Of a stretch of DNA of 38,188 nucleotides, positions 7,332 to 38,188 are shown piece after piece. Within the stretch, counting starts at the first letter, position 1, and every line of letters begins with the position of its first letter. The stretch covers positions 1 to 38,188 of IMG/VR virus record IMGVR_UViG_3300022839_000040; one strand, written 5' to 3'. The DNA is from a virus. Both the position numbers and the translations under genes were made by a program. The notes under the pieces were generated by a model. That model saw only the letters and a program-made list of their open reading frames with translations, did not search any database and was not told the DNA's origin.

Positions 7332-9035
7332 TTATACTGCTGGAGGTTCTTCTGCAGGTGCCTGGGCTGCTGCGCCTGCTTCGGCTGCTGCTGCCATATC
7401 ATCAGGAGCTGTTTCATCTTGGGCGCCTAAATCAGCTGACATACCGCTTGGAGTAATACCTGCTGATCGCATCTCGCTTGCTGCATCTGTGGATGCTTTT
7501 AGCTTGTTGCCGTTTTCTTCGCGCCATAATGTTTCGTTTTCTACAATCTCTTCCTGAGTAAGACCAAGATATCGTTTCATAGCAAAACGTTTGCTCATAT
7601 GTGGAATTTCTTGCACCTGCGCAAACACTCCAACACGAGTAGTATCAAGTTCTGCTTGACGGTAAGCAGCAAAGTTTTGCGGAGGATTAAATCTTAAGTC
7701 AAACAAACTTGAATCAATATTGATGCCTTGGTGCTGCATCCATAACTTAAATTCTAAGTCGAATGTTTCGACAACCATTGCCTGCAACCGTTCGCAGTAC
7801 TTGTTAAATCGTAGTTCTTGAATGTATGCTGTGCCAACTTTGCCATCGGCAACTGAGTTACTTGATTCTTCAACACCTGTTGGCAAGTAAGCACTGGGAA
7901 TTCTCAACGCACGGAATAACTTGTTAGTAAAGAAGCGTAAGTCAGTAATTTCACCTAGGTTAGTACCGCCTGGTAACGTTTCTACTTTTGATCCGCGACC
8001 TTCTGCTGTCTGCGGAAAGAAATAATCTTCGTTAGTGCTTAATGGATTATAACTTGAGTCAACAATGTTTGAACCGCCGCCACTAGCACTAGGAATGCGG
8101 CGCTGCTGTATTTCGTTTTTAACACGTTCAACAAAGCTCATGGCCATGTGTGCTGGCATATTACCCACGTCAACATAGAAAATCCTACGTTCAGGCGCAC
8201 GTTGAATACGATAGATAATAATTGCATCTTCCAGCAATTCTTTTTGCTTGTAAACTTTGAATACTGATTCTAGCAAGCTATTGCCGAAAGGATAGTTTCT
8301 ATCTAGTCCTTCACTTAATGAAATATGCACAACATCTTTTGCATCAACGCAAAATTCGTTTGAAGCATTTTGAAAACGTGTACCAGGAGACTGTCCCATA
8401 TCACCAACCATACCGCGTCCAAATCCGCCACCTGTGGTGTAAGAGCTTGTACCGCTAGGGCTAGTGTTAGATGTTCCGTGTGGAGTAACCGCAACTAGAT
8501 TTGCAAAGTTGAAGTTCATATCTTTAATAACATACTGCTCAGGAACTTTACCTTCGCTTTCGTTTACAATAATTTTGCTTACTTTGGCAGCATCAACAAA
8601 TAGCCATTTTTTAGTTTCAGGATCACGTACAAAGAAACAGTCGCCGTATTTGAATGCATTACGCACAATGCGGAATATACGTGTTTCAAATTGTTGTTGC
8701 TTGACCCACTTCTGCAGGCTGTCTTTAATTAGTTTAACTTCAGTGCTAGTCGGCTTGCCGCGGAAGTGTGTACTAAACGGTGTTTCGTTTTCTTTATCGC
8801 GCTGTGTACAAAATTCAGCAAGGATATCTAGTGCAGCGTTAACTTCACTGTCCATATCCATTGTGTCGTATTGAATATACTTTTCAATACGGTTCGGACT
8901 ACCTGCGTATACATCTGGCAAGTAGCTTGAGTAATTAGTACGAGCTGGCCCGGGTCTCCCTTGGCCGCCCAATGGACTCATTGATCCTGATTGATTCGAT
9001 GTGTCTACTGGGGTGAAGTATTTTTTCCAACTCAT
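7332..9035 (-). CDS. 20: Portal vertex protein gp20
   Basis: Forms the dodecameric ring at the head vertex through which DNA is packaged and which starts prohead assembly. At 567 aa it compares with 524 in T4. Diagnostic gp20 segments are visible: 'RIEKYIQYDTMDMDSEVNAALDILAEF', 'RNAFKYGDCFFVRDPETKKW', 'IYRIQRAPERRIFYVDVGNMP', 'TLPGGTNLGEITDLRFFTNKLFRALRIPSAYLP' and 'ELRFNKYCERLQ'. The C-terminal tail after residue 520 is Ala/Pro/Glu-rich and probably disordered. It opens the head run and follows the tape-measure-like gene by 15 bases. Confidence 0.97.
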   Translation of the reverse strand: MSWKKYFTPVDTSNQSGSMSPLGGQGRPGPARTNYSSYLPDVYAGSPNRIEKYIQYDTMDMDSEVNAALDILAEFCTQRDKENETPFSTHFRGKPTSTEVKLIKDSLQKWVKQQQFETRIFRIVRNAFKYGDCFFVRDPETKKWLFVDAAKVSKIIVNESEGKVPEQYVIKDMNFNFANLVAVTPHGTSNTSPSGTSSYTTGGGFGRGMVGDMGQSPGTRFQNASNEFCVDAKDVVHISLSEGLDRNYPFGNSLLESVFKVYKQKELLEDAIIIYRIQRAPERRIFYVDVGNMPAHMAMSFVERVKNEIQQRRIPSASGGGSNIVDSSYNPLSTNEDYFFPQTAEGRGSKVETLPGGTNLGEITDLRFFTNKLFRALRIPSAYLPTGVEESSNSVADGKVGTAYIQELRFNKYCERLQAMVVETFDLEFKLWMQHQGINIDSSLFDLRFNPPQNFAAYRQAELDTTRVGVFAQVQEIPHMSKRFAMKRYLGLTQEEIVENETLWREENGNKLKASTDAASEMRSAGITPSGMSADLGAQDETAPDDMAAAAEAGAAAQAPAEEPPAV

Positions 9036-9050
9036 TATATTATCCTATTA

Positions 9051-11639
9051 TTAGACGCTGGCAAATAAGTCACCGCTCAATCCTTGCTGCACTGTAAGCT
9101 GTCTATCTTGAACATCTTTCATGTTCATATTTACTTTTATTAACTGCTCCAACTTAGTATTTAAGCTAGCAAGTAATGATTCTGCTGATTCTTGAGTAGG
9201 TGCCGCAGCAGTAGCAGCGCCTCCTGAGTTCTTCATCTCTGCTTTGTCTGCTTTAGCTTTAACTTCAGCTTCTTTTTTATTTTCAATATCTTTCTTTCCG
9301 GCTTCAGCTGTAGACATACCGCCTGATTTTGGTCCTCCGGCAATTGCTACTTCAGATTTCAACAAGTCTAAACTATTGTTTGTATTAAAATTAGTCTTTG
9401 CTTGTGCTGCCTCGGCTTTATCGTTTTCAACACCAATTTTCTTAGTATGACTATCTTTTAGTCCAATAAGTTTTTTATCTATTTCAGTTTTCTTTTGCTC
9501 TCTGGCTTCTTTCTTTGTTTCACTGCTTCGTTCGTTAGCTACCCCTTTTCTTTCTGCATCTCTAACTTTTTCTTTTTCGTCTAATGCTTGTCGTTCAGCT
9601 GCTACTTCTTGTTGTTTAAGTTTAACTGCTTTATTTGCATCACCAAATGTAATTTTATCAAGTACTGCTAAAAATCCGTCTTGCAACAATAGAAAGAATC
9701 GTTTTAAATTATCTCCGACTGCATCAAGTGCTGTGCTAAATGACCAACCAGTATCATAGAGCTGTTTAAATCCTGCAATAAGTGCAACAACACCTGCAAC
9801 TATACCAATAATTGGAAGAGTAAGCAAAGATAGTGCCGTTGTGGCTAAAAAGGATGCTGCAGATTGTGCTAGAGTTGCGGCTGTCGTTATAGCTAGATAG
9901 CCTCCATATATTGCTAATGCTGTACCTAATCCCAAAAATATTGGCATCAGATTATCAGCAATAAATGTTCCTATACGTTCAAACATAGGCATTACATAGG
10001 TGCCTATTAGATTAGCAATGTCGTTAAACACGGGTACAACATAGTCGTTAATAGCTGATGCCATTAGTTGCAACACTGGAACAATATCTACCAACACAAA
10101 TGCTGCCAAAGTTAGGAAAGCTGGGTACAGGCTATCTCTAATAAAGTTTCCAATACTTTCAAATATTGGTTTTAAATTTGTTACAAGATACATACCAACT
10201 TGTGTAATAATATCGCTAAAAATCATAAAGGCAGGTAACACATAAGTTGTTACTAGATCGGCAACAATTTTAAATGCTCCCATTAATACATCAAGCATAC
10301 CACTTCCAGCTAATGCCATTGAAAAAGCGTTTCCAATTTCTGCAAGACTTTGCTGAAACTTTTGCATCTTCTCATTCATCTTGTCAGTGTTCTTTGCAGC
10401 TTCGCCCTGTTGTTCCCCTGCTTTCTTCACACCGTCTGTGGCAATTTGGTAAGTGGCTGCAAGTGCATTAGTGGTTCCTGCAAGACTAGCATCGGCTGCT
10501 GCTGCACTTTTAATATTTTTTAGATTCTTTGCACCCTCTTCCTTCATTTTATTGTTAAGAGCGTTACGTTCTGCATCAGTAACCGCTTCACCACGCTGCA
10601 TCTTCTGTTGCATAGTAGTTAACATAGCCGCCGACTGAGGCAATTGCGCTAACAACTTTTGATTCTCTTCAGTAGTTGCTGTACCGTTGGCCAACATATC
10701 TTTGGTAAAGTTCTGCAACGGTTCTGGCAATCCGAGAACAGTATTTCTAAAAGACTTTTGTACTTCTTCGTTCTGTCCAGCCATTGCTGCTTGGAACTGT
10801 GCATCTTTAGCCAGTGTTGCTGCTTGTGCTTCTTTAGCAGAACGTTCTTCGCCGGTAATCTTTGCAAGGCCGTCCATCTCTTTTAGATATGTCCTTGCAC
10901 CTTGTGCTAGTTGAGCATTAGTCTTACCGCCAGACAACCCTTGGCTTCTTAATAACGCACCATATCGAATAAGACCGCCATTAATTTCTTGACTACTCAT
11001 ACCTAGTGCATATAACTCCGAACTAGTTGACCGTACTGATTTTGAAACTTGTGCAAAGTTTTTAGCACCATCTTCGGTAGTTGTACCAAAGGCCATCAAG
11101 CCGGCACCGTTATTTTTAATTAATGATCCAAATTCTGCCATGTTCATGCCAGCTTGAGATGCTGATGCAGAGAAACTAGCCATGCTTCCACCGAAACTTG
11201 CTCCGCCGCCTGCGGCATTTACAAATGATTTAGTAACTCTATCAGCTGCGCCAGCAACTGCTCCAAATGCTCCACCTACTAGGCCGCCCACAATTGGTAA
11301 CTGTTTAAATATATCAGCTGCATCTGTAATTGAACCATCTAACTGAGCGAACTGGCTAACAGTGCTGGTTAGTTTATTACCTAGAGTAAAGAACCCTCCA
11401 ACAACACTACTGATACCAACTGTTAGTCTTTTAAAATGATCAGTGCTAGCTTTCCGGTTACCGTTATCTTCTTTCTGATTTTTATTTCGATCTCTCTGAT
11501 TCTTTTCGTCGTCTTTATTACCTTTTCCACCTTTCATTCCCTTAATAGCACTGACTAACTCTCGTAAGGTGGCTTCAGACGCTGCATTCTTAGCTTCTAC
11601 ATTTCCTATGCCTGGTATATCAATTGTTACTGATGCCAT
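9051..11639 (-). CDS. Tail tape-measure-like protein (gp29 role)
   Basis: An 862-aa protein with tape-measure character: long Ala/Gln/Lys-rich helical stretches, and a cluster of hydrophobic segments at about residues 440-625 (for example 'MPIFLGLGTALAIYGGYLAI' near 564 and 'LLTLPIIGIVAGVVALIAGF' near 603). A charged coiled coil (about 660-770) and a low-complexity Lys/Glu/Ala region follow. The N-terminus has a basic linker (about residues 36-65). T4 gp29 (590 aa) sets tail length and plugs the hub. The assignment rests on composition and on the adjacent gp26/gp51 pair, tape-measure chaperone genes being usual neighbours. AGGA precedes the ATG, and a GATAAATA site lies 51 bases upstream. Confidence 0.75.
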   Translation of the reverse strand: MASVTIDIPGIGNVEAKNAASEATLRELVSAIKGMKGGKGNKDDEKNQRDRNKNQKEDNGNRKASTDHFKRLTVGISSVVGGFFTLGNKLTSTVSQFAQLDGSITDAADIFKQLPIVGGLVGGAFGAVAGAADRVTKSFVNAAGGGASFGGSMASFSASASQAGMNMAEFGSLIKNNGAGLMAFGTTTEDGAKNFAQVSKSVRSTSSELYALGMSSQEINGGLIRYGALLRSQGLSGGKTNAQLAQGARTYLKEMDGLAKITGEERSAKEAQAATLAKDAQFQAAMAGQNEEVQKSFRNTVLGLPEPLQNFTKDMLANGTATTEENQKLLAQLPQSAAMLTTMQQKMQRGEAVTDAERNALNNKMKEEGAKNLKNIKSAAAADASLAGTTNALAATYQIATDGVKKAGEQQGEAAKNTDKMNEKMQKFQQSLAEIGNAFSMALAGSGMLDVLMGAFKIVADLVTTYVLPAFMIFSDIITQVGMYLVTNLKPIFESIGNFIRDSLYPAFLTLAAFVLVDIVPVLQLMASAINDYVVPVFNDIANLIGTYVMPMFERIGTFIADNLMPIFLGLGTALAIYGGYLAITTAATLAQSAASFLATTALSLLTLPIIGIVAGVVALIAGFKQLYDTGWSFSTALDAVGDNLKRFFLLLQDGFLAVLDKITFGDANKAVKLKQQEVAAERQALDEKEKVRDAERKGVANERSSETKKEAREQKKTEIDKKLIGLKDSHTKKIGVENDKAEAAQAKTNFNTNNSLDLLKSEVAIAGGPKSGGMSTAEAGKKDIENKKEAEVKAKADKAEMKNSGGAATAAAPTQESAESLLASLNTKLEQLIKVNMNMKDVQDRQLTVQQGLSGDLFASV

Positions 11640-11697: not shown

Positions 11698-11707
11698 GGA
11701 GAAAAAT

Positions 11708-12574
11708 ATGAATCAAAATGTAAATATACCGCAAACGCCAAAATTAAATCCTTTGGCTAATTGGTATAGACAGCCTAAAATCTATGTGAGATTGCCTAGT
11801 CAAGGTCGATTCTATCCCCCAGGTGCATTAGACGTTAGTGCAAACGAAGAATATCCTGTATACTCAATGACTGCCAAAGACGAGTTAATGTTTAAAACTC
11901 CTGATGCACTGTTAAGCGGGCAAAGTACAGTTGAAGTTATTAAAAGTTGTATTCCTGCTATTTTAGATCCCTGGGCAATGCCCAGTATTGATCTAGACTT
12001 TGCACTCATTGCTATCCGCATCGCTACCTACGGCGAAAACATGGAAGTTAGAGTAGACTGTCCACATTGCAAAGAAGAAAATACCTACGATATCAACCTG
12101 TCAGACTGGATTGGTATCTTTAGCCAATTTACTTACAATTCAATTGTAGAAGCTGGGCCGCTAAACGTGCATGTGAGACCTTACAACTATAAAGAAGTTA
12201 CAAAAGCATCAATTAAAACACTAGAGCAACAGAAGATCTTTGGCATTATTAACAATGAAGAAATCAGCGATGAGCTAAAGTTAGAAAAGTTTGGTGAAAG
12301 TTTTGTTAGACTAACTGAACTCACTGTTGATATTATTGCAGATTGCATTACACATATTGAAACACCAGACGGATCCACTGACGATAAAGTTCAGATCAAA
12401 GACTTTATTAATAATTCATCTAAAGATGTGTTTGAAGCTATCCAAATACACATTACTAAAATTAAAGATACTATAGAGTTTAAAGCAAAAGATGTCCAAT
12501 GCGGAGACTGTCATAAGGAGTTCTTACTACCTGTGACAATGGACCAATCAAATTTTTTCGCAGTAAAATCTTAA
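11708..12574 (+). CDS. 26: Baseplate hub assembly protein gp26
   Basis: A 288-aa protein of the gp26 family: 'YVRLPSQGRFYPPGAL', 'YPVYSMTAKDELMFKTPDALLSGQSTVEVIKSCIPAI', 'MPSIDLDFALIAIRIATYGENMEV', and two Cys pairs (CPHC and CGDC) resembling a zinc-binding site. I chose ATG 11708 because GGAG at 11698-11701 precedes it; a longer frame from 11624 would overlap the divergent gene and adds an unrelated leader. In T4, gp26 works with gp51 in hub assembly. The C-terminal codons AAT TTT TTC contain a T TTT TTC slippery heptamer (12553-12559), so a fraction of ribosomes may shift -1 into the gp51-like frame. Confidence 0.88.
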   Translation: MNQNVNIPQTPKLNPLANWYRQPKIYVRLPSQGRFYPPGALDVSANEEYPVYSMTAKDELMFKTPDALLSGQSTVEVIKSCIPAILDPWAMPSIDLDFALIAIRIATYGENMEVRVDCPHCKEENTYDINLSDWIGIFSQFTYNSIVEAGPLNVHVRPYNYKEVTKASIKTLEQQKIFGIINNEEISDELKLEKFGESFVRLTELTVDIIADCITHIETPDGSTDDKVQIKDFINNSSKDVFEAIQIHITKIKDTIEFKAKDVQCGDCHKEFLLPVTMDQSNFFAVKS

Positions 12575-12598
12575 ACAGCCCTTTGCCGGAGATTTTAC
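12553..12598 (+). promoter_or_regulatory. Probable programmed -1 ribosomal frameshift signal (slippery site plus hairpin)
   Basis: Slippery heptamer T TTT TTC at 12553-12559 is in the correct gp26 phase (codons AAT TTT TTC). Three bases later a perfect 9-bp inverted repeat begins: GTAAAATCT at 12563-12571 pairs with AGATTTTAC at 12590-12598, with a further T-G wobble inside. The gp26 stop codon (12572-12574) lies in the loop. A -1 shift joins gp26 to the frame ending at 12786, which is open through this point and has no ATG with a ribosome binding site of its own. Confidence 0.7.
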
Positions 12599-12786
12599 AG
12601 ATAGCCAAACGGATGGAGTCTGAGGTTAAGGGAATCAAGAAAGACGTTCTCAAAATGTGTTGGTACATGAGAGGTCTTTCTTATAGTGAAGGCATGAATC
12701 TAAGTCATGATGAAAGAGAAATTGTTGCTGAGATTATTAAAGAAAACTTAGAGACTACAAAGAAAACTAACTTACCTTTCTTTTAA
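12583..12786 (+). CDS. 51: gp51-like hub assembly protein, probably made as a gp26-gp51 frameshift fusion
   Basis: This frame encodes a helical domain ('LPEILQIAKRMESEVKGIKKD', 'LKMCWYMRGLSYSEGMNLS', 'ETTKKTNLPFF') that I assign to the gp51-like hub assembly family by sequence feel and by its place after gp26. The nominal start is TTG at 12583 without a Shine-Dalgarno. Reading upstream in the same frame gives FFRSKILNSPLPEIL with no stop back into gp26, so the natural N-terminus may be the frameshift junction at 12559. The fusion would be 284 gp26 residues followed by about 75 residues. This resembles lambda G/G-T tape-measure chaperones. The alternative is reinitiation at TTG 8 bases after the gp26 stop. 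Confidence 0.7.
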   Translation: MPEILQIAKRMESEVKGIKKDVLKMCWYMRGLSYSEGMNLSHDEREIVAEIIKENLETTKKTNLPFF

Positions 12787-12791
12787 TCATA

Positions 12792-12818
12792 AAAAAGCCT
12801 GCTTAAAGCAGGCTTTTT
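12792..12818. terminator. Bidirectional rho-independent terminator
   Basis: AAAAAGCCTGCTT and AAGCAGGCTTTTT form a long perfect stem with a tiny loop, with A-run and T-run on either side, so it works on both strands. It lies between the convergent gp51-like gene (stop 12786) and the 188-aa gene (stop 12833). Confidence 0.9.
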
Positions 12819-12832
12819 GTTGGCTGTATATA

Positions 12833-13399
12833 TTACTTTTGACGGAACAATGTAAAGCCTTCGGCAACTACTTTACCGCTATTAACTTTACTTTGAGTCT
12901 GCATAGCTGGTTGAGCTGGTTGAGCTGCTGCTCTGCCAGTAACTCTAACTGGATTTTTGCGTACAGGAGCCGGCGCTGTCATTGAAGTTTGTAGCATAGC
13001 AAGAATTTTCTGTTTCTCGCTAGGCTTTAAAGTGGCAATGGCCTGCTGTGCTTGTTTGTACCCAGATGCTGCTGCCATTGGTGCTGCGTTCTTAGGAGCT
13101 GCTTTCTTAGGAGCTGCTTTCTTAGGAGCCGTAACTTTAGCATATTCATCGTCATATGCTTTTTTCACAGCTGGATCTTGTTCTGCATCTGGTTCTGCAT
13201 CTGGAACATCACCTGCAATGTTTGCAGTAGAAGTAGCTTTACCTTTTTGGTACGCTTTCTTAACGCCACCTGCAATGCCGCCAATCATACCAACGCCTTT
13301 AGCAACCCCGCCAATGCCCTTAGCTAGTCCACGACCAATAGCACCTAACGGTCCTTCTTCAAGTTCTTGTGATTCAGTTAAGATTTCAGTTAGTCGCAT
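12833..13399 (-). CDS. Predicted internal head protein with capsid-targeting leader, 188 aa
   Basis: The N-terminus MRLTEILTE-S mirrors the roughly 10-residue capsid-targeting sequences of T4 internal head proteins (IPIII begins MKTYQEFIAE-A): Met, polar residues, Glu, two hydrophobics, x, Glu, then the gp21 cut. After it come a Gly-rich stretch (GPLGAIGRGLAKGIGGVAKG, about residues 17-48), an acidic patch (DVPDAEPDAEQDP) and a basic PKKAA repeat (about residues 91-107). Then come a helical domain (about 112-138) and a basic, Ala/Pro-rich tail. It has no enzymatic motif. A NATAAATA late promoter candidate lies 50 bases upstream. Role inferred: packaged DNA-binding or core protein cleaved by gp21. 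Confidence 0.65.
   Translation of the reverse strand: MRLTEILTESQELEEGPLGAIGRGLAKGIGGVAKGVGMIGGIAGGVKKAYQKGKATSTANIAGDVPDAEPDAEQDPAVKKAYDDEYAKVTAPKKAAPKKAAPKNAAPMAAASGYKQAQQAIATLKPSEKQKILAMLQTSMTAPAPVRKNPVRVTGRAAAQPAQPAMQTQSKVNSGKVVAEGFTLFRQK
13086..13130 (-). repeat. Three 15-bp tandem repeats inside the 188-aa gene
   Basis: Three near-identical 15-bp units (core TTCTTAGGAGC on the plus strand) encode the repeated basic APKKA/APKNA pentapeptides. Such in-frame repeats can expand or contract by slippage. Confidence 0.85.
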
Positions 13400-13996: not shown

Positions 13997-14431
13997 TTAA
14001 ATTTTGGGTTTTTTGAGGATATGTGAGCCGTGAACTCGAACCTGTATGTGACCGTTGTACCAGTCAGTAGATTCTAGAACTTTGTGTTTAAATTGTTCTC
14101 TTGCCTCGATGTAGCTGCATTCTGATTTGTTTTTGCAGTAAAATAGAATTTCTCTGGTGAAGTTATTTTTGCCTAAAGTCTTAATATCTGCTGTAAGCGC
14201 ATCGCTAGAACCATAATAGTCCTTCCAATCGCTTTCAATCTTGCCTCTAATTTTCTTTTTTTTCTTAGTGCCGTTCTTAAGTGTAACTGTTTTATAAGTT
14301 GTTTTTGCGAACTTTGCTAGTTTTTTGCCTATATACTTGCGCCCAGAGATGACATTGGTAATAAGATATACGAAACCGATATAATCTTCGGAGATTGCAG
14401 TAATTTCTTTCTTCTTATAGTACCATGTCAT
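13997..14431 (-). CDS. GIY-YIG nuclease domain protein
   Basis: The 144-aa protein contains 'GFVYLITNVISGRKYIGKK', the GIY-YIG core (here VYL and YIG), followed by 'ESDWKDYYGSS', 'LGKNNFTREILFYCKNK' and 'SYIEAREQF', whose Glu is a candidate metal ligand. This architecture occurs in Seg-like and other small phage endonucleases. There is no evident extra DNA-binding domain, so whether it is a homing enzyme or a recruited repair/host-DNA nuclease is open. Its ATG overlaps the stop of the 77-aa gene by 4 bases (ATGA), placing it last in the gp47-gp46 early operon. Confidence 0.8.
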   Translation of the reverse strand: MTWYYKKKEITAISEDYIGFVYLITNVISGRKYIGKKLAKFAKTTYKTVTLKNGTKKKKKIRGKIESDWKDYYGSSDALTADIKTLGKNNFTREILFYCKNKSECSYIEAREQFKHKVLESTDWYNGHIQVRVHGSHILKKPKI

Positions 14432-27696: not shown

Positions 27697-30600
27697 ATGG
27701 CAGATAAAAAATTCCCTCAAAGCGGTTTACCAATCAGAAAAACTGTTGAATTGTTACCAACAGTTTTTAGATCAGACGCGAATGACAAATTCATGTCGGC
27801 AGTGGTTGATCCGTTAGTTCAACCAGGCACCTTACAAAAGTTAGTAGGATATGTTGGAAGACGCTATGGAAATACATACAACGGATCTGATATCTATATT
27901 GATACTGATAATACACTACGTAGCAGATATCAGTTAGAACCTGGAGTAGTTTCTAGAACCAATAACACTGTAGACAGTTTCTACGATTATCTCGATTTTA
28001 AAAATCAATTACAGTTCTTTGGAAATACAGAGGAACGTGACGACTTAATCACAGGCCAAGAACACTACAGTTGGAATCCTCCTATTGACTGGGACAAGTT
28101 TATTAACTATCGCGAATACTACTGGGAACCTAGTGGACCACCAGCGATACCAGTATTCGGTCAATCAGCAAAAATTATTAGCACATACAAAGTTGCTCTC
28201 GGATTAAACTCTTTTATCTTTACTCCTGATTCATTTACTAATAATCCAACAATTACACTATACCGTGGCCAATCATATAAATTTCAAATTAAAGCACCTA
28301 AAGAAGGGTTTGCAATTAGAACAAACTATGACACTGGCTCATTAATATTCAATCCAGCCCGCCCATATTCTGCAAACGAACAAGCGGTATATGATGGCAA
28401 ACTATGGAAAGCTAAAGTAGCAATTGCGTCTGGAGCCAGCAGTAGTATTACGCTTGGAAGTCAGGATTGGGAATTTATAGCACTTGTAGCGTCAGGCACT
28501 GCCCTTGACTATAGCATTGGTGTTACTAATAATGGAATTGAAAACGGAACCTTAACTTTTAAAGTACCGTACGACGCACCTGATGTATTATTCTATCAAA
28601 GTTTAATTGATCCTAACAAGTTTGGTAGGTTTCTAATTACTGATATTGAGGCAAACACAAAGATAAACATTGATAAAGACATCATTGGCAAAATAACCTA
28701 CACTAGCAGCAACGGAATAACATTCTCAAACGGCATGGTTTTAGAATTTAGAGGACAAGTTACTCCTTTAAAATATAGTCTAGACAGTTGGCTAGTAGAA
28801 GGAGTAGGCACAGCAATTACATTAACACGGTTTGCAGATCTTATTGTTCCTGTGTTGACAACAGATACTCCGGAAGTTGTATTTGATAATGAAGGATTTG
28901 ATACTCAGCCGTTTGACGATGCAACAACATATCCTGCACAGAAAGATTATATCACTATCAAACGTGATAGCAAAGATACTAATCCTTGGAGTCGTTATAA
29001 CCGTTGGTTCCACCGAAATGTATTAGAATATTCTTACACTTTACGAGGCGAAGATTTTTCAGCAACTGAATCTCAAAGAGCAAAACGTCCTATCATTGAG
29101 TTTAAGTCAAACATTCAATTGTTTAATCATGGTAGTATTTCTAAAGAAGTTGTAGACTATATTGATGATTATACAACAGATGTATTTTCTAAAATAGAAG
29201 GTAGTGTTGGCTACAACATTGATGGAGAAAATTTATTTGAAGGCGCTCGAATTTTAGTAACTGCTGATACTGATATTCTTGCAAACAATAAAATTTACGA
29301 AGTTAACTTTATTACACATAATAACAAAAAACGAATACATTTAGCAGAAACTACAGATTCTGATTCTGTAGCAGGCGCCGGAGTATTAGTACGTCGAGGT
29401 AAGAATAACGGCGGATTGATGTATTATTTCAATGGATCAAGTTGGTTAGCTAGCCAAGCAAAAACAGCAGTCAACCAGCCTCCGCTATTTGATGTGTTTG
29501 ACAGTAATGGAATAAGTTTTTCCAATACTGATACGTACCCTATAAATTCTTTTAACGGAAACAAACTATTTGCATACAAGATTGGAAACAGTATTGCGGA
29601 CAAAGAATTAGGATTTAGTCTAAGTTACTTGAATATTGACAATGTGGGCGACATCCAGTTTGACTGGAATTGGGAAATTGATAATTTCACATACACTCTT
29701 GATCAATTAGAGTTGACTAAAAATATATCTAGCGGATATTTCAAAATTAATCCAGACGATGTTTATTTAAACGGATGGACTAAAACTGATAATACATATA
29801 TCCAGCCTATCATTGATAGTCAGGTCATTACCGAAGTAACTAACACTATAAAGTTAACAACTATTAACTGGGATAATGTTACTGATAATACTAATTTAAT
29901 AATTAATTTCTATGTTAACCAACAGCAAAAACAAGTAACGCCTATTACTAGAGAGCGCGGAGTATTCACTTTTGCAAATAATTTTGCAGTTGACGACGTT
30001 GTATATGTTAAAATAATTACAGATTTGTCTCCAGATACCGGGTATTATGAAATGCCGGTTAGTCTTGAAAAGAATCCGTTAAATCAAGCATTAACAACTT
30101 TTACATTAGGCCAGGCAATTGATCACGTAGCTGGATCAGTTGAGTTTGATACTAGATATTCTGGAAATATTCCAGGCATTTCTAATATTCGAGATCTAGA
30201 TGACTACCAACCGTTTGCAAAAAGATTTTTAAAGCATTCTGGAATTGCACCGTTAGCAGTTAGTTTATTATGTGATAAAACTTCTAACATAATTAAATCA
30301 ATTCAACATGCTAGAAAATCTTATACAGATTTTAAAAATAATTTTATTGCTAGGTCTACTACTATAGATTATAACGATAACTTAATTAATTTTGTTGATG
30401 ATATCATTACCGACTTAACCAAGACAAAAAATGCAGATAGTGCATTTTCAAATTCTGACATGATTGGCAGCGGCGCATTTATTGCTATCAACTATACAGT
30501 AGAAGATACTGGAATTACAACATTTGCATTATCAGAGAAATTTACACTAACTGAACTAAGCAACAGAGCAGTTTATGTTTACATAAACAATCAACAGTTA

Positions 30601-33600
30601 TTGAACGCTACAGAATATGAATTTAATGCTACTTTTGGTTTTATAACTATTTTAGCTGACTTGGCAGAAAACGACGAAGTTGAAATTAGAGAATATATTT
30701 CGACAGCAGCAAACTATATTCCGTCAACACCAACATCAATGGGACTGTATAAAAAATACACACCAATGAAATTTGTCGATGATACTTACCAAGAACCTAG
30801 AGAAGTAATTCAAGGCCACGACGGTAGTATTACTGCCTCTTACGGTGATTTCCGTGATGATCTATTATTAGAACTAGAATACAGAATTTACAACAACATT
30901 AAGCAAGAATATAATACAGCTATTTTTGATAATGATTTAGTAGTAGGCGGATACTACAGTAACGTATTGTATACTAAATCTCAATTAGACGGCATTGTTG
31001 TGCAAGAGTTTTTAAAGTGGGTTCAAAACACAAATATTAACTATACAATTAACGAGTATTTTGATAGTGAAAATTCTTTCACTTACACATACAGTAACAT
31101 GACCGACCCATCTGGTACACAAAATTTGCCAGGGTACTGGAGAGGAGTATACCAGTGGTTCTTTGACACTGATCGCCCACATCGTTGCCCTTGGGAAATG
31201 TTAGGATTTTCAGAGCAGCCAGTATGGTGGGAAGCAGAGTACGGTTCTGCTCCTTATACTAGCGGCAACTTAATTCTTTGGGAAGACCTTGAAGCTGGCA
31301 TAATCCGCAAAGGCACTACTGCTGGAACGTATGATAGATACAAGCGTCCTGGATTAACAACATATATTCCGGTTGATAGTGACGGTAACTTACTAAGTCC
31401 GTTAGACGCCGGGGTATCTAAAAACTTTACATTGATAAACAACAGAGGAAGCTTCGTATTAGGGGATGTTAGCCCAGCAGAGTATGCTTGGAGATCTAGC
31501 AGCGAATGGCCGTTTGCTGTAACATTAGCAATGTGTTTAATGAAACCGTTTGAATTTATTACAGACAGCTTTGATAGGTCCAATACAACTACAAATATAT
31601 TAGGGCAAACAATTAATTCTAAGACAGGAGTGTTTTCAACTCTTAAAGATATTGTAATATCGACAGCTAGTAACGAACTAACATCTGGGCTAGTGAAATA
31701 TGTCTCAAGTTATATTAGATCTATTGGTGCAGATATTTCAGAAGTTAATACAAAGCTACGAAATCTTGATGTTAATTTATCTACTAGATTGTCAGGCTTT
31801 GTTGACAAAGCTCAACAAAAGTATATTTTAGACAGCAAGAATCCAAGTGCAACTTCTAGTAACATTTACATTCCTGCAGAAAACTACGACATTATTTTTA
31901 ATGTTAGTTCTCCGATCGCAAGTGTTTCCTATAGCGGAGTGATATTAGAAAAATCTGAAGGCGGATGGGTTATAAGTGGCTACGATAATATTCACCCGTA
32001 TTTTAACTACTATCCAGCTGTAGCTAATCAAGCCGATCCTACAATCTCAGTAGGCGGAGTTAGTGAAACATTTACTGACTGGACAACAAATAAAACCTAC
32101 AACAATGGACAGATAGTACGTCGGAATAATACATTTTATAGAGCTTTAAGAACTCATAGTAGCAGTACGGTCTTTGATACAGCCCAGTGGAAAAAATTAC
32201 CACAGTTGCCACTAGTTGGCGCAGTGGAAGCACAACGTCGTAGAACTTTTAATACTTTGAATCTTTCTAGACTCAGCTATGGTGCTAGATTAGATACTGT
32301 GCAAGAAGTAGTTAACTTTCTGCTAGGGTATGAAGCATATCTAAAATCTGTTGGGTTTACCTTTAATAGATACGATCCAGCAAATCAAGTTTCTCAAGAC
32401 TGGACAACAAGCTGCAAAGAATACATGTTCTGGACCAGACAGAATTGGGCAGTAGGGTCTCTAATTACATTAAGCCCAGGCGCAGAAAAATTAGATATTA
32501 CAATTCCAGTAGGAGTTGCTGATAATATTCTAGATGGATTCTACAGTTACCAGTTATTAAAAGCCGACGGAAAACCGTTAGCTCCTAATTTTATTAACGT
32601 TAACAGAAGTTTTCAAAATATCACAGTAGCGACTACTAATACTACAGAAGGTATCCATTACCTAACAGTATACTATGTGCTTAAAGAACACGTTGCTATT
32701 TTCTCTGATCGTACAGTATTCAATGATATTATCTATGACAAGTCAACTGGGTATCGCCAGGATAGGCTAAAGACACAAGGATTCCGCACAGTTGATTGGG
32801 ACGGGGATTACACTAGCCCTGGCTTTTTGTTTGATAACGTTAACATTACTGCCTGGGCTCCTTTTAATGATTATAAGTTAGGAGACATTGTTTCTTATAG
32901 AAGTTACAATTGGACTAGCCTTGTAAACCAATTAGGGTCAGAAACATTTAACAATACTAGCTGGACAAAACTAGATTCAACCCCGGAAAAACAACTAGTT
33001 GCAAACTTTGATTATAAGATCAATCAATTTGAAGATTACTATAATGTAGATGCTGAAGGTACAGGTGAAAGCCAACGTGCTCTAGCACGTCACGCAGTTG
33101 GTTACCAGACTAGAGAATATTTACAAACTCTAGCTGAAGATCCAGTAACACAGTTCCAATTATATCAGGGATTTGTTAGAGAAAAGGGCACAGCAAATGC
33201 AATTTCTAAAGTGTTTAATAAACTAAGTCGTTCAACAGGAGACAGTATTGTACTCAATGAGGAATGGGCATTTAGAGTTGGCCGCGTCGGCGGAACAGAT
33301 CAATTAAGAGAAATTGAGTTTGAATTTTCAAAGAATAAATTTAAAATTGATCCCCAACCGTTTTTATTAACAGCTAATATTGATACAGCTATCACTGATC
33401 AATATTATAGAATCGCACAATCAAATTTTACAGTATCTCCTATAGACTTTACTTTTAATGTAACTCCTGTAGCATACAGCAATGGATTAGAAAAAACGGC
33501 TGGATATGTAAAAAATGATCAAATAGATTTTATATTGAAATCTAGAGACGACATTTTAGATCTTGATATTAATAGTGTTGTAGAAAATGATCATATCTGG

Positions 33601-36600
33601 ATCACATTTGATTCATACACCTGGACAGTTTTACGATATAACCAAGCACCACAACTTAATATTATTGACGTATCTCTAGCAGATGGGCAAGTAACAATTA
33701 CACTGTCACGCCGTCATAGTCTTATAGTTGACGACATTGTTGGGGTTAAGGAAATTCCTAATCTTACAGGATTTTTTAAGATTGTTGAAGTTGGAGATTA
33801 TACATTAGTAGTTGAAGCAACCTCAACTACTGCACCTGAATTTGATGCTAGCACACTTACAACATTGTACACGTTGACTACTGCTCGTACTGCATCCTAC
33901 GACACATTGGATCCAGAAGCAGCCGCATTATTAGTTAATGGCGCTAAACTGTGGGTTGACAACAACGGCAGTGACCTTTGGGAAGTTATTAGAAAAAATA
34001 AACAATTTGTAAACAAAGAATTAACTGAGTATGGCATTACCACTCCTATTAATGCAGGAACTAAAGTTATCTATGATGACAATTTAAAACAGACTATATC
34101 TAGTATTCCAGGATCCGGATATGTAATGAGTTATATTGAATCACATAATGGTCTAACACTAAAACAAATTATTGCTCCTCTAAGCGGGTTCGAGTCAAAT
34201 GTTGTTGGATCGTTTGGTAGCAAGATGGCGATAAGTCCAGACAGTCGTTGGTTAATCGTGTCATCACCATTGGCCAGCGGAATCAAGAGTAATTACCAGG
34301 GTGGTTTTTCATCAGCATCATACATAGAGGATGATATTGTTCTATATGCTGGTAGTTTATGGAAAGCAAACAAGGATATAAACACTAGCGATTACAGCAC
34401 GATTGATCTTGATTCAGAAAATTGGGAACAAGCTAACTCTATTCCTGCACTATCGTCCGGAAGAGCTCCTGGATTTACTCAGCAAGGTATGATTTCTATT
34501 TACGAATGGAGTAACCAACAATGGAATATACATTCTTCATTTGTTAGCCCGCGTCCACAAGAATATGAATTCTTTGGCTCAGAAGTTGCAATTGGAGTAA
34601 GCGGCACAGAATATTACATGGCAGTCTCTGCAATCGGTTCACTAGAAAATCGAGGAAGAGTTTACCTATTTGAATACGACGGCGTAGAGTGGACACACAA
34701 AGAAAATTCTAGCTATGCTGGAATCTATGATCCAACAGGAGCAACTAGTTACCCAGCAGGAACAATTGTTTGGTTTAACGAATCTTTGTGGCAGTCTCTA
34801 GAAGACCAACTAGGTGACGGCAGCTCTATTACTGTAGACTCACAACAGTGGACACAACTAGATCCAGTATCTACACATACCTCACTACCATCAAATATCT
34901 CCATTGACGATGATGGATCAACATTAGCGCTTATAAATCTTACAGAAGAAGCTACTATTGGTATATTAGGCAACACGCAATTAGCAGAATTAATTAAAGT
35001 AGGAGACGAGTTCGGTACTTCGATGACTATGAGCCGAGACGGTGGCATTCTTGTTATCGGTGCACCAAACAGCGACGGCCAATATTTTGCAAACTACAGA
35101 GGACAATGGAGAGCAGATGTAGAGTATGCTGAAAATGATGTAGTGAAGTCTGAAACACAATATTATAAATTAACAGATGCAACAAGCATTAACGACGACC
35201 CGTCAGGCAGTGGACTGCCTTGGATTAATGTGGGCGATAGTACCACAGTATCATCTGGCAAAGTTTACATTTACCAACGGTCTACATTGGGAACATATGA
35301 TCTCAAGCAGACAATCAATGCTGGATCGATGGTAGGGTTAAATGATATTACTACCGGCAATACAGAAATTAATGCAGGCGACCAATTTGGATTTGCTATT
35401 GATGTTGATTATTCAGGAACTACACTAGTAATAACAAGTCCTAGGGCAGACTTAAATCTTATAAATCAAGGCTCTGCTTATGTGTTCGAAACTGCAGGAC
35501 TTGCAGCCCTCGAATTTAGATTGAAGCAAAAACTAGAAAGTTTTGAACAGTATGCTGATGAATGGTTCGGCCAAAGTATCTCTATTAGCTCTGGTACAGA
35601 AAGAATTGCCATCGGCGCAAAGAATACTCCGTTTGTTAATGTCACAATGTTTGATACTCTAGATGGTACATCGTTTGATCAGTCGCTAACACGATTTATC
35701 GATGCAAAGGGATATGCAGGCGCAGTATATGTATTTGAAAGAAAAGCAGATAGCTATTTCCTAACTGAAAAATTAGAAGCAGAGTTATCGCCGTTTGAAT
35801 CTTTTGGTAATAGCATAGATTGTACTAGATCTGCAATAGCTGTAGGATCTCCCAGATTTGTTGCGCCGGTATTGTCTGGATCAGCATTTACATACCCTGG
35901 ACAAAAGATAGGCACAGTTAGATTGTTTAGAAAAGATGAAACTATCGAATCATGGGAAGTGTTATCAACTAAGCAAAAAATTGTTGACCTTGCAAAAATT
36001 CGAAGCATTGGGTTATATGACAATGTCAAAAACACAAAAATTCAAGACATAGACTATGTTGACCATGCTAATTTAAAAATATTAAATTCTGCAGAACAGG
36101 AACTTGCATTCAAAACTCCGTTTGATCCGGCAGTGTACACACTAGGAACTGATGATCAAGTTGTTGAACCAACACAGTCATGGACTACTAAACATGTAGG
36201 TGAACTTTGGTGGGATTTGTCACAAGCTAAGTGGATAGACTATCAGCAAGGCGATATTGCTTATCGAGTAGGCAACTGGAATACTCTTGCAGCAGGCGCA
36301 AGTATTGACATTTACGAATGGGTAGAAAGTTTACTGCTACCGTCAGAATGGAGCGGAGTTGCAGATACTAACGAAGGTATAGCCGAAGGTATTTCCGGAC
36401 AGCCATTATATCCTAATGATAATGTGTATTCAGTTAAAGAACTGTTTAATTCTAATACTGGGCTAGCAACCTCAACCTTATACTATTATTGGGTCAAGAG
36501 CAAAGTAACAGTACCTGAAAATATGCCAAGCAGAAGAATATCAGCTGCATCAGTTGCATCATATATCAGTAGCCCAGCAGGAACCGGAACAGCATTTGTT

Positions 36601-38188
36601 GCACTACTAGATACAGACAAAATATTAACGTATAACTTTACCTCGGTTATCTCGTCTGATACAGCATTGTTGAATATTGAATATCGTAAAACCACTGATA
36701 GTTTAAATGCAATACACAACGAATATCAATTGTTAACTGAAGGTGTAGCAGATAGCGTACCTACAAAACAGTTAGAAACAAAATGGATTGATAGTTTAAT
36801 TGGTATAAATTTAACAGGTGACCGAGTTCCAGATTCTACATTATCTGACAAACAAAAATACGGAATAAGTTTTAGACCAAGGCAGTCAATGTTTGTTAAC
36901 AATATAGCAGCACTGAAAGCAGCTATACAACGAGTTAATACTGTGTTGCAACAGGAATCGTTTGCAGATATTATCAATTTTAATAACTTAAATTTAATTG
37001 ACCAAGCACCTAATGCTGTATTAAATCGCTATGATGTTGCAGTAGATACATACGCAGACTTATTATTAGTGGGTACAGCTAAAACTCGTCAAGCGACTTT
37101 ATCAGTTAACATTGTAGACGGATTAATCGATACTATTGATATTGTTAGTCCGGGATTTGGTTACAAGCCAACAGAATTAGTTAATCAATCAATTCCTGGA
37201 GTGTATGTTGGACCAACGATTAGTATAACAGGTACAGGTACAGGCGCCACAGCAGAATGCCGCATTGATGGCCAGGGCAGAGTTATTACAGTTGTAGTAA
37301 CTTTAAAAGGCAAGAAATATAGTTCGGCATCTGCAGCAGTAAGACAGTTCTCAGTTTTAGTTAATAGTGATGCTACTTCTAATAATTTCTGGAGCATATA
37401 TGCATGGGATGATGTAAGAAAAGTATTCTTTAGAAGTGCATCGCAATCATATGATACTACACGTTATTGGAGTCTAGCAGATTGGTGGAAAGAAGGATAT
37501 ACTCCAACAGACCGCATTGTTAAGGAAATTACAAATCTTTCAGAGTATCCTGCGATAACAAATCTTAATGCAGGGGATTTAGTCCGTATCAAAGAATACG
37601 GCGCTGGCGGATGGGCAGTCTTTGAAGAACTAACTAATTTGCAAAATACTAGCATTAATACCTTTTTAGATAATCACCAACTAGTAGGCAGGGAGAAAGG
37701 TACTGTAGAATTATCTAGCAGTTTGTATGATATTACCGCATCTGGGATCGGGTACGATACTGCTCAAACATTCGATGCTACTTACTATGATATAGGTAAT
37801 TCTACCGAATTAAGAAATATTTTTGCGGCAGTTAAAGAAAATATATTTATTGGTGACTACGCAATTGAGTGGAATCGACTATTCTTTAATTCTGTAAGAT
37901 ATGCATTTGCTGAACAGCCATATATTGACTGGGCGTTTAAAACTAGTTTCTTAACAGCTACTCATAATGTAGGTCCGCTAACGCAAAAACTTAATTACAA
38001 AAATGATAACATTGAAAGTTTCCAAGAATATATTAACGAAGTTAAGCCATATAGAACAACAGTAAGAGAATATATCAGCAGATACGACACAATAGAAGCG
38101 GCACCGTCTGCAATTTCAGATTTTGATTTACCTCCAACTTACTCAGTTGAAGCAGGAAAAATTGTTCCAGTAAACCAATACAGTATCG
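27697..38188 (+). CDS. Giant baseplate wedge protein at the gp7 position, partial (3' end outside window)
   Basis: An open frame from ATG 27697 (purine-rich AAGAAGA upstream) to the right edge, at least 3497 codons, with in-frame reading and no stop in any stretch checked. It begins MADKKFPQSGLPIRKTVELLP, then 'KFMSAVVDPLVQPGTLQKLVGYVGRRYG' and 'YDYLDFKNQLQFFGN'; conserved landmarks include 'NPWSRYNRWFHRN' near residue 429 and 'RPHRCPWEMLGF' near 1160. A beta-propeller-like FG-GAP region spans about 2169-2750. W/Y-G-D-I-V modules similar to carbohydrate-binding modules lie near 223, 1462, 1720, 2209, 2349 and 2471. It follows gp6 as gp7 does in T4 (1032 aa). The wedge role is inferred from position. 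Confidence 0.85.
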   Translation, partial: MADKKFPQSGLPIRKTVELLPTVFRSDANDKFMSAVVDPLVQPGTLQKLVGYVGRRYGNTYNGSDIYIDTDNTLRSRYQLEPGVVSRTNNTVDSFYDYLDFKNQLQFFGNTEERDDLITGQEHYSWNPPIDWDKFINYREYYWEPSGPPAIPVFGQSAKIISTYKVALGLNSFIFTPDSFTNNPTITLYRGQSYKFQIKAPKEGFAIRTNYDTGSLIFNPARPYSANEQAVYDGKLWKAKVAIASGASSSITLGSQDWEFIALVASGTALDYSIGVTNNGIENGTLTFKVPYDAPDVLFYQSLIDPNKFGRFLITDIEANTKINIDKDIIGKITYTSSNGITFSNGMVLEFRGQVTPLKYSLDSWLVEGVGTAITLTRFADLIVPVLTTDTPEVVFDNEGFDTQPFDDATTYPAQKDYITIKRDSKDTNPWSRYNRWFHRNVLEYSYTLRGEDFSATESQRAKRPIIEFKSNIQLFNHGSISKEVVDYIDDYTTDVFSKIEGSVGYNIDGENLFEGARILVTADTDILANNKIYEVNFITHNNKKRIHLAETTDSDSVAGAGVLVRRGKNNGGLMYYFNGSSWLASQAKTAVNQPPLFDVFDSNGISFSNTDTYPINSFNGNKLFAYKIGNSIADKELGFSLSYLNIDNVGDIQFDWNWEIDNFTYTLDQLELTKNISSGYFKINPDDVYLNGWTKTDNTYIQPIIDSQVITEVTNTIKLTTINWDNVTDNTNLIINFYVNQQQKQVTPITRERGVFTFANNFAVDDVVYVKIITDLSPDTGYYEMPVSLEKNPLNQALTTFTLGQAIDHVAGSVEFDTRYSGNIPGISNIRDLDDYQPFAKRFLKHSGIAPLAVSLLCDKTSNIIKSIQHARKSYTDFKNNFIARSTTIDYNDNLINFVDDIITDLTKTKNADSAFSNSDMIGSGAFIAINYTVEDTGITTFALSEKFTLTELSNRAVYVYINNQQLLNATEYEFNATFGFITILADLAENDEVEIREYISTAANYIPSTPTSMGLYKKYTPMKFVDDTYQEPREVIQGHDGSITASYGDFRDDLLLELEYRIYNNIKQEYNTAIFDNDLVVGGYYSNVLYTKSQLDGIVVQEFLKWVQNTNINYTINEYFDSENSFTYTYSNMTDPSGTQNLPGYWRGVYQWFFDTDRPHRCPWEMLGFSEQPVWWEAEYGSAPYTSGNLILWEDLEAGIIRKGTTAGTYDRYKRPGLTTYIPVDSDGNLLSPLDAGVSKNFTLINNRGSFVLGDVSPAEYAWRSSSEWPFAVTLAMCLMKPFEFITDSFDRSNTTTNILGQTINSKTGVFSTLKDIVISTASNELTSGLVKYVSSYIRSIGADISEVNTKLRNLDVNLSTRLSGFVDKAQQKYILDSKNPSATSSNIYIPAENYDIIFNVSSPIASVSYSGVILEKSEGGWVISGYDNIHPYFNYYPAVANQADPTISVGGVSETFTDWTTNKTYNNGQIVRRNNTFYRALRTHSSSTVFDTAQWKKLPQLPLVGAVEAQRRRTFNTLNLSRLSYGARLDTVQEVVNFLLGYEAYLKSVGFTFNRYDPANQVSQDWTTSCKEYMFWTRQNWAVGSLITLSPGAEKLDITIPVGVADNILDGFYSYQLLKADGKPLAPNFINVNRSFQNITVATTNTTEGIHYLTVYYVLKEHVAIFSDRTVFNDIIYDKSTGYRQDRLKTQGFRTVDWDGDYTSPGFLFDNVNITAWAPFNDYKLGDIVSYRSYNWTSLVNQLGSETFNNTSWTKLDSTPEKQLVANFDYKINQFEDYYNVDAEGTGESQRALARHAVGYQTREYLQTLAEDPVTQFQLYQGFVREKGTANAISKVFNKLSRSTGDSIVLNEEWAFRVGRVGGTDQLREIEFEFSKNKFKIDPQPFLLTANIDTAITDQYYRIAQSNFTVSPIDFTFNVTPVAYSNGLEKTAGYVKNDQIDFILKSRDDILDLDINSVVENDHIWITFDSYTWTVLRYNQAPQLNIIDVSLADGQVTITLSRRHSLIVDDIVGVKEIPNLTGFFKIVEVGDYTLVVEATSTTAPEFDASTLTTLYTLTTARTASYDTLDPEAAALLVNGAKLWVDNNGSDLWEVIRKNKQFVNKELTEYGITTPINAGTKVIYDDNLKQTISSIPGSGYVMSYIESHNGLTLKQIIAPLSGFESNVVGSFGSKMAISPDSRWLIVSSPLASGIKSNYQGGFSSASYIEDDIVLYAGSLWKANKDINTSDYSTIDLDSENWEQANSIPALSSGRAPGFTQQGMISIYEWSNQQWNIHSSFVSPRPQEYEFFGSEVAIGVSGTEYYMAVSAIGSLENRGRVYLFEYDGVEWTHKENSSYAGIYDPTGATSYPAGTIVWFNESLWQSLEDQLGDGSSITVDSQQWTQLDPVSTHTSLPSNISIDDDGSTLALINLTEEATIGILGNTQLAELIKVGDEFGTSMTMSRDGGILVIGAPNSDGQYFANYRGQWRADVEYAENDVVKSETQYYKLTDATSINDDPSGSGLPWINVGDSTTVSSGKVYIYQRSTLGTYDLKQTINAGSMVGLNDITTGNTEINAGDQFGFAIDVDYSGTTLVITSPRADLNLINQGSAYVFETAGLAALEFRLKQKLESFEQYADEWFGQSISISSGTERIAIGAKNTPFVNVTMFDTLDGTSFDQSLTRFIDAKGYAGAVYVFERKADSYFLTEKLEAELSPFESFGNSIDCTRSAIAVGSPRFVAPVLSGSAFTYPGQKIGTVRLFRKDETIESWEVLSTKQKIVDLAKIRSIGLYDNVKNTKIQDIDYVDHANLKILNSAEQELAFKTPFDPAVYTLGTDDQVVEPTQSWTTKHVGELWWDLSQAKWIDYQQGDIAYRVGNWNTLAAGASIDIYEWVESLLLPSEWSGVADTNEGIAEGISGQPLYPNDNVYSVKELFNSNTGLATSTLYYYWVKSKVTVPENMPSRRISAASVASYISSPAGTGTAFVALLDTDKILTYNFTSVISSDTALLNIEYRKTTDSLNAIHNEYQLLTEGVADSVPTKQLETKWIDSLIGINLTGDRVPDSTLSDKQKYGISFRPRQSMFVNNIAALKAAIQRVNTVLQQESFADIINFNNLNLIDQAPNAVLNRYDVAVDTYADLLLVGTAKTRQATLSVNIVDGLIDTIDIVSPGFGYKPTELVNQSIPGVYVGPTISITGTGTGATAECRIDGQGRVITVVVTLKGKKYSSASAAVRQFSVLVNSDATSNNFWSIYAWDDVRKVFFRSASQSYDTTRYWSLADWWKEGYTPTDRIVKEITNLSEYPAITNLNAGDLVRIKEYGAGGWAVFEELTNLQNTSINTFLDNHQLVGREKGTVELSSSLYDITASGIGYDTAQTFDATYYDIGNSTELRNIFAAVKENIFIGDYAIEWNRLFFNSVRYAFAEQPYIDWAFKTSFLTATHNVGPLTQKLNYKNDNIESFQEYINEVKPYRTTVREYISRYDTIEAAPSAISDFDLPPTYSVEAGKIVPVNQYSI

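Follow-up and report, generated by a model that had tools for sequence, protein, structure and literature searches.

A slippery heptamer conserved at the end of gp26 points to a programmed −1 frameshift that would give relatives of phage T4 a short and a long form of a tail assembly protein

The G/G-T frameshift of phage lambda reportedly goes back to Levin 1993 and Xu 2004. Lambda G/G-T and related frameshifts of tail assembly chaperones are described in a review of recoding, the accessible part of which makes no mention of gp26, gp51, baseplate, cyanophage or T4-like (PMC5009743). For T4 itself, the available text of a review lists gp26 and gp51 as hub assembly chaperones, states that gp51 is not in the particle and refers to genetic evidence in favour of gp26 being a hub component (PMC3004832); because a pure chaperone would not be in the hub, the last point counts against a chaperone reading of gp26. 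In the accessible text of Sullivan 2010, the gp51 of cyanophages and of marine vibriophage is said to lack the first ~200 residues, with an aligning C-terminus, and the word 'frameshift' does not occur in the main text available (PMC3037559). In phage P1, the position of PmgB led to its being proposed as a chaperone for the tape measure, and Sit was called the tape measure, according to the part accessible of PMC9024508. Among the matches listed, the titles and abstract beginnings of the open-access literature held no report of a gp26/gp51 frameshift, and such a report may exist elsewhere; one paper names, in its accessible part, a supplementary table of peptides suggesting frameshifts in T4-like Klebsiella phages (PMC13119998).

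Here we analysed a stretch of viral DNA of 38,188 nucleotides (hereafter the window; positions 1 to 38,188 of IMG/VR record IMGVR_UViG_3300022839_000040), in which an earlier note had proposed a −1 frameshift fusing gp26 to a gp51-like domain, here called ORF2. The product of the window gp26 gene matched PF12322 (E 4e-17, 63.1 bits vs a Pfam cut-off of 24.5) and phrog_150, the T4 gp26-type baseplate hub protein (E 1e-21), and its final codons read AAT TTT TTC GCA GTA AAA TCT TAA. Both the T TTT TTC heptamer in tandem-slip phase at the end of gp26 and the open −1 frame running upstream through it were found as the note had described them (Table 1). Ribosomes translating gp26 would reach this heptamer, and a minority of them, aided by a downstream hairpin, would slip back one base into ORF2, an event that we infer together with its frequency. 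The outcome would be a gp26-ORF2 fusion of 359 aa (284 + 75; calculated mass 41.08 kDa) beside the 288-aa gp26, with EFLLPVTMDQSNFFR as the predicted junction peptide of the fusion and EFLLPVTMDQSNFFAVK as its counterpart in the short form. Together, gp26 and the fusion would be the short and long chaperone forms needed for assembling the tail hub and tape measure, corresponding to T4 gp26 and gp51, which are encoded by two paralogous genes in T-even phages. On the comparative evidence given below, we consider it highly probable that gp26 and ORF2 are expressed through a programmed −1 frameshift as short and long forms of one chaperone, matching T4 gp26 and gp51.

Table 1 Features of the gp26-ORF2 locus in the window.
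Feature	Position	Strand	Remarks
Large divergent neighbour	9051-11639	-	862 aa; called tape-measure-like from position only
GGAG ribosome binding site of gp26	11698-11701	+	7 to 10 nt before ATG 11708
gp26 (T4_baseplate), predicted zero-frame short product	11708-12574	+	288 aa, 32.7 kDa
T TTT TTC slippery heptamer, −1 phase	12553-12559	+	TTT TTC are zero-frame codons
ORF2, −1 frame following the putative slip	12559-12786	+	75 aa; frame open 12520-12786
Stem, 5' arm GTAAAATCT	12563-12571	+	conserved core 12567-12571; perfect complement, covariation
gp26 zero-frame stop TAA	12572-12574	+	in stem loop
Stem, 3' arm	12590-12598	+	core 12590-12594; covariation
Palindrome, reverse-complementary 13-base arms, A and T runs on either side	12792-12818	+	between ORF2 and convergent gene 12833-13399 (-)

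Since TTTTTTC is no rarity in the window (12 copies, both strands counted) and in-phase X XXY YYZ heptamers whose second triplet is A or T numbered 33 in 25,752 coding bases, a single sequence proves little on its own, and the evidence lies in conservation. Loci were gathered by gp26 or gp51 similarity and not by the heptamer; a viral-contig scan with the window gp26 contributed the best 80 of 360 relatives, and nine of 66 matched phage records were taken, chosen for diversity. In the first set TTTTTTC was in phase in 84/84 loci. The junction count was made from 190 loci, with 11 of T-even type (L085, L181-L190) left out by design and one (L134) having no gp26 stop, and of the 178 non-T-even gp26 junctions that remained, 177 had T TTT TTN in −1 phase with the −1 frame open beyond it. 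The earlier note had suggested aligning such junctions and had held a non-conserved heptamer or phase to be grounds for giving up the frameshift; conservation was found instead.

These 177 heptamer-positive junctions comprised 81 of the window family, 82 nearest to the cyanophage query, two Rhizobium phages included, and 14 from jumbo and other phages, namely 12 from jumbo phages and their close IMG/VR kin, plus Aeromonas phiAS5 and Vibrio EniLVp02. The jumbo-phage hosts were Escherichia, Klebsiella, Cronobacter, Vibrio, Pseudomonas, Sinorhizobium, Agrobacterium, Stenotrophomonas and Xanthomonas, and the slip site read TTTTTTT in Stenotrophomonas RAS14 and Xanthomonas XacN1. Near-identical loci contribute to the 177, L001-L006 and L084 being of the same kind as the window and L178 and L086 representing one phage; there were 67 distinct gp26 genes in the window family and 68 in the cyanophage set. 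In 172 of the 177 junctions the −1 frame ended inside the locus. Assembly or indel errors were rejected as the source of the frame change, since the same junction recurs in many contigs and isolate genomes. The one exception was Pseudomonas phage Cygsa01 (L095, 3072-3982), where gp26 ends with ATT TTC ACC TAA and the ATG of the −1 ORF overlaps the gp26 stop. Cygsa01 may have switched to coupled translation.

At the codon level, only the AAT, TTT and TTC of the heptamer were invariant among 111 conserved degenerate columns in the 67 distinct gp26 genes of the window family, apart from one gene with GAT, which codes for another residue, in place of AAT. Elsewhere in these genes TTC is used less often than TTT for Phe, making up 136/798 of the codons. 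Likewise, TTT was the sole codon-invariant column of 63 in the cyanophage set of 68 genes (in 67 genes; one was misaligned by an offset), and in four genes the second residue was changed from F to L via TTG or TTA with the T run retained. Judged by this codon use, the constraint at the heptamer is one that acts on nucleotides beyond the protein. The notion that the heptamer merely reflects a conserved Phe-Phe of gp26, with ORF2 an unrelated downstream gene that lies in −1 phase by chance, draws on the FF that also ends some T-even gp26 proteins without any frameshift. There, the C-terminal residues are FF, FI or LF, but FF is coded TTC TTT, and T TTT TTN occurred in 0/10 T-even-type gp26 genes, which stand beside a separate gene 51 (in this control L183 runs off its locus and the gp51 frame of L189 is just 120 aa). 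With the codon invariance, the use of a minority codon and the almost uniform −1 phase also speaking against it, we regard a mere Phe-Phe signature as extremely unlikely.

Evidence that the ORF2 frame is coding came from its pattern of variation. Purifying selection on ORF2 was apparent from a median dN/dS of 0.13 in the window family (61 distinct sequences, 879 pairs used) and of 0.19 in the cyanophage set (59 distinct sequences, 480 pairs used). From the heptamer to the gp26 stop, variation among the junctions with the commonest overlap length (n = 47) fell mostly at third positions of the −1 frame and at the first position of its second codon, the −1 reading being RSKIL in 25, RRKIL in 15, RRQIL in four, RGKIL in two and RAKIL in one, and hence the −1 reading is the conserved one in this interval. 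Relatives of ORF2 detected by tblastn in 14 phage records gave alignments that begin at or upstream of the heptamer, and in a profile comparison the window-family ORF2 matched the jumbo-phage ORF2 along its full extent, starting at FF (E 9e-23). The heptamer, its −1 phase and the −1 coding are shown by these comparisons to be under selection.

Alternatively, ORF2 could be a separate short gp51 with a start of its own, used through coupled translation or reinitiation close to where gp26 stops, so that the heptamer would be incidental. In Phosso, Atu_ph07, 121Q, EniLVp02 and Cygsa01 an ATG either overlaps the stop codon of gp26 or lies right beside it, the first quarter of ORF2 holds start codons in 40/82 cyanophage-set junctions (39 with ATG) and in 51/81 of the window family (13 with ATG), several cyanophages have an ATG at +63 with AAGGA, and several records annotate ORF2 as its own gene. 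However, the first-quarter starts mostly have no strong Shine-Dalgarno sequence, a match of at least 4 bases being present in just 9/177 junctions in a simple string match. Start codons in the ORF2 frame upstream of the heptamer were restricted to 18/81 window-family and 1/82 cyanophage-set junctions, and a Shine-Dalgarno match of at least 4 bases accompanied one of them among all 177 junctions, in a window-family member. The kind of gp51 start that the earlier note had named as evidence against the frameshift, one with a good ribosome binding site at this place, is thus uncommon. In the window itself the first ATG, GTG or TTG of this frame is TTG 12583, for which the same scan gave no Shine-Dalgarno match, in agreement with the note's statement that ORF2 lacks a proper start. 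Together with the −1 reading conserved ahead of the gp26 stop, and a heptamer that is conserved at the codon level and absent where gene 51 is separate, these results make an independent gp51 unlikely as the general explanation, although a separate short gp51 may additionally be made in some relatives.

Under the preferred frameshift, the fusion would supply the missing ~200 N-terminal residues of cyanophage gp51. The short gp51 of Sullivan 2010 is most likely the same ORF2, called reduced in the text available there (PMC3037559) and read here as a −1 tail of gp26. In the phage records that we opened, gp26 and ORF2 were annotated apart or ORF2 was unannotated, and the fusion would therefore be missing from protein databases built on these records.

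The perfect 9-bp stem with the gp26 stop in its loop, reported by the earlier note, was confirmed in the window, and comparison across 53 distinct junctions indicated that its core covaries. All nine pairs considered, pairing was formed in 90.6% of cells, vs at most 57.4% with a slid 3' arm. Pair 21-48 was GC in 35, AU in 17 and GU in one sequence and was never broken, and pair 18-51 was UA in 39, CG in seven and unpaired in seven. On the gp26 tree, which has 67 tips, parsimony counted seven changes on one side of pair 21-48 and eight on the other, which argues that the covariation does not stem from a single event. In shuffles, which ignore relatedness, the real stem was exceeded in 0/500 for the number of paired cells, for that of cells with both sides changed and for the covariation score, and in 10/500 for pairs changed on both sides; the count of further pair types was as high in 227/500, so that by this measure the real stem did not exceed the control.

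The stem was not uniformly kept, being imperfect or lost in some window-family members (e.g. L031). Each of the outer four pairs was broken in 7 to 14 of the 53 sequences, each of the inner five in 0 to 4, and the conserved stem accordingly begins 7 nt, not 3, after the heptamer. The concern of the earlier note that a three-base spacer is short for a stimulatory stem is hence eased. An RNAalifold consensus retained four inner pairs with an energy of merely −0.43 kcal/mol, and the stem energy of the single window sequence was not unusual (z −1.08), the support for the stem being its covariation. RNAalifold yielded no consensus stem for either of two subsets of the cyanophage junctions, with 18 and 28 distinct members; single cyanophage junctions often show hairpins, which we did not count as evidence. 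On the strength of the covariation, we consider the stem a candidate downstream stimulatory structure in the window family.

The covarying stem also bears on whether the −1 message could arise by transcriptional instead of ribosomal slippage on the run of six T, which is present in all 177 positive junctions. A downstream stem of this kind fits ribosomal frameshifting better, and the run is in tandem-slip phase in 177/178. Six T are short for RNA polymerase slippage, which likewise weighs against this origin, and we regard it as very unlikely.

The relation of ORF2 to T4 gp51 was addressed by profile comparisons. T4 gp26 (residues 1-206) and T4 gp51 (residues 1-201 of 249) both match PF12322, from which we take them to be paralogs, with gp51 carrying ~48 extra residues. 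The alignment of cyanophage gp26 extended to residue 200 of gp51 (E 2e-9), whereas that of cyanophage ORF2 covered columns 200-251 of the gp51 profile (E 1.1e-6), so that the C-terminal segment of gp51 corresponds to cyanophage ORF2. Consistently, phrog_634 ('baseplate hub assembly catalyst') matched T4 gp51 147-246 as well as the ORF2 of S-CAM8, EniLVp02 and phiAS5, three of five phages tried; the ORF2 of 121Q and Phosso gave no match. The window ORF2 had no PHROGs or Pfam match and hence none to phrog_634, and the window-family ORF2 alone did not reach a match with gp51 (E 0.25), but pooled with the jumbo-phage ORF2 it did so over 31 columns (E 6e-5; reversed sequences 0.13). The label 'gp51-like' given by the earlier note thus draws its support from relatives and from profile comparison, not from a direct match of the window ORF2. 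The best reading of T4 gp51 is that of a gp26 and an ORF2 united in one frame, a reading that is weaker with the window's own group.

In the AlphaFold model of a T4-like gp51 (L186, pLDDT 91), a helix at 198-205 spans junction residue F202 and is followed by a three-helix extension, and the model of the window gp26 (pLDDT 82) has a short C-terminal helix at 280-283, at FF. Neither the gp26 nor the gp51 model had a PDB fold match at E ≤ 0.001.

In contrast to the overlapping arrangement, T4 gp26 and gp51 are encoded by two separate genes on opposite strands, without a heptamer. PF12322 matches numbered one per record in 17/17 records with the −1 ORF arrangement, Cygsa01 included, and two in T4, with the provisos that five of the 17 are IMG/VR contigs and possibly incomplete, and that a second copy, if very divergent, might have escaped the search. 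We lean towards the view that a frameshifted short/long pair is ancestral to the T4 superfamily, taking in cyanophages, vibrio-, rhizobium- and jumbo-type phages and, with a different slip, P1-like phages, and that the T4 26/51 pair is a derived duplication. If the frameshift reading holds, the essential but unexplained gp51 of T4 would be the long form of a two-form chaperone and gp26 its short form, the truncated look of cyanophage gp51 would be explained, and a frameshift would be seen replaced by a gene duplication. By these comparisons, many relatives of T4 appear to make two versions of a tail-building helper from a single gene.

The organisation resembles lambda G/G-T in that a short product would be accompanied by a low-abundance −1 fusion, the slippery site lies near the end of ORF1, the C-terminus would be supplied by a second frame and a large putative tail gene is nearby. 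It differs in the larger ORF1 with paired Cys motifs and in the large neighbour of the window gp26, which is divergent instead of downstream, and no sequence or fold relation to lambda G/G-T was found; gp26 and ORF2 had no match to a Pfam TAC family. The likeness drawn by the earlier note has been strengthened by the paralogy of T4 gp26 and gp51, by the gene order of EniLVp02 and phiAS5 and by P1 PmgB, and is still one of analogy given the missing TAC family or fold match. By that analogy, gp26 and the fusion may work like lambda gpG and gpGT, as their T4-superfamily counterpart and not as members of that family, and would act on the tape measure as these do. T4-like contractile tails would then share a short/long chaperone logic with lambda-type tails.

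As for the neighbouring genes, the large divergent gene next to the window gp26, which the earlier note had called tape-measure-like, is indeed present, but its identity is given by position only, as it had no PHROGs or Pfam match. A large divergent gene occupies the same place in Phosso, PA5oct, 121Q, RaK2 and GAP32 (compared by position), and that of RaK2 is annotated as similar to tail tape measure protein. Of the neighbours scanned with the T4 tape measure profiles (PF25671, phrog_1283), only gp29 itself matched. In EniLVp02 and phiAS5 the gene order is tail-tube or tube-initiator gene, gp26, ORF2 and then a gene of 629 or 623 aa. The gene following ORF2 in phiAS5 matched phrog_7182 (E 3e-7), as P1 Sit does, and the corresponding gene of S-CAM8 matched an 'endolysin' PHROG. 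One Acinetobacter T4-like record (H186) names gp26 'tape measure protein assembly chaperone'.

P1 PmgB, of phrog_1854, is distantly related to gp26 (E 3.5e-4 for the window gp26 against phrog_1854, E 0.024 for PmgB against phrog_150), and pmgB lies between tub (tail tube) and sit and has a conserved out-of-frame extension, which, unlike ORF2, is in the +1/-2 frame. In the three phages examined, this C-terminal extension reads GGIPIQDAERL in P1 (L200, pmgB at 7493-8374 (-)), GGMPVQDAVQL in JK004 (L201) and GYQPVSDVEQL in D6 (L202). GGGGGTA is common to the pmgB genes of P1 and JK004 and would allow a −2 slip of the GGG codon; D6 does not have it.

Downstream of ORF2, the palindrome listed in Table 1 is probably a two-way terminator; a pattern scan for terminators listed none. 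Its position and T run after ORF2 suggest that gp26 and ORF2 probably share one transcript. Rfam returned 14 matches at 12657-12850, all below gathering scores. Further along, a 144-aa ORF (13997-14431, (-)) near SbcC/SbcD-like genes matched PHROGs of homing endonucleases (phrog_314, E 1e-11), but its stronger match was to phrog_447, which is labelled NAD synthetase (E 1e-37). At the far end, one uninterrupted reading frame (27697-38187, (+)), at least 3497 aa long, runs off the end of the window.
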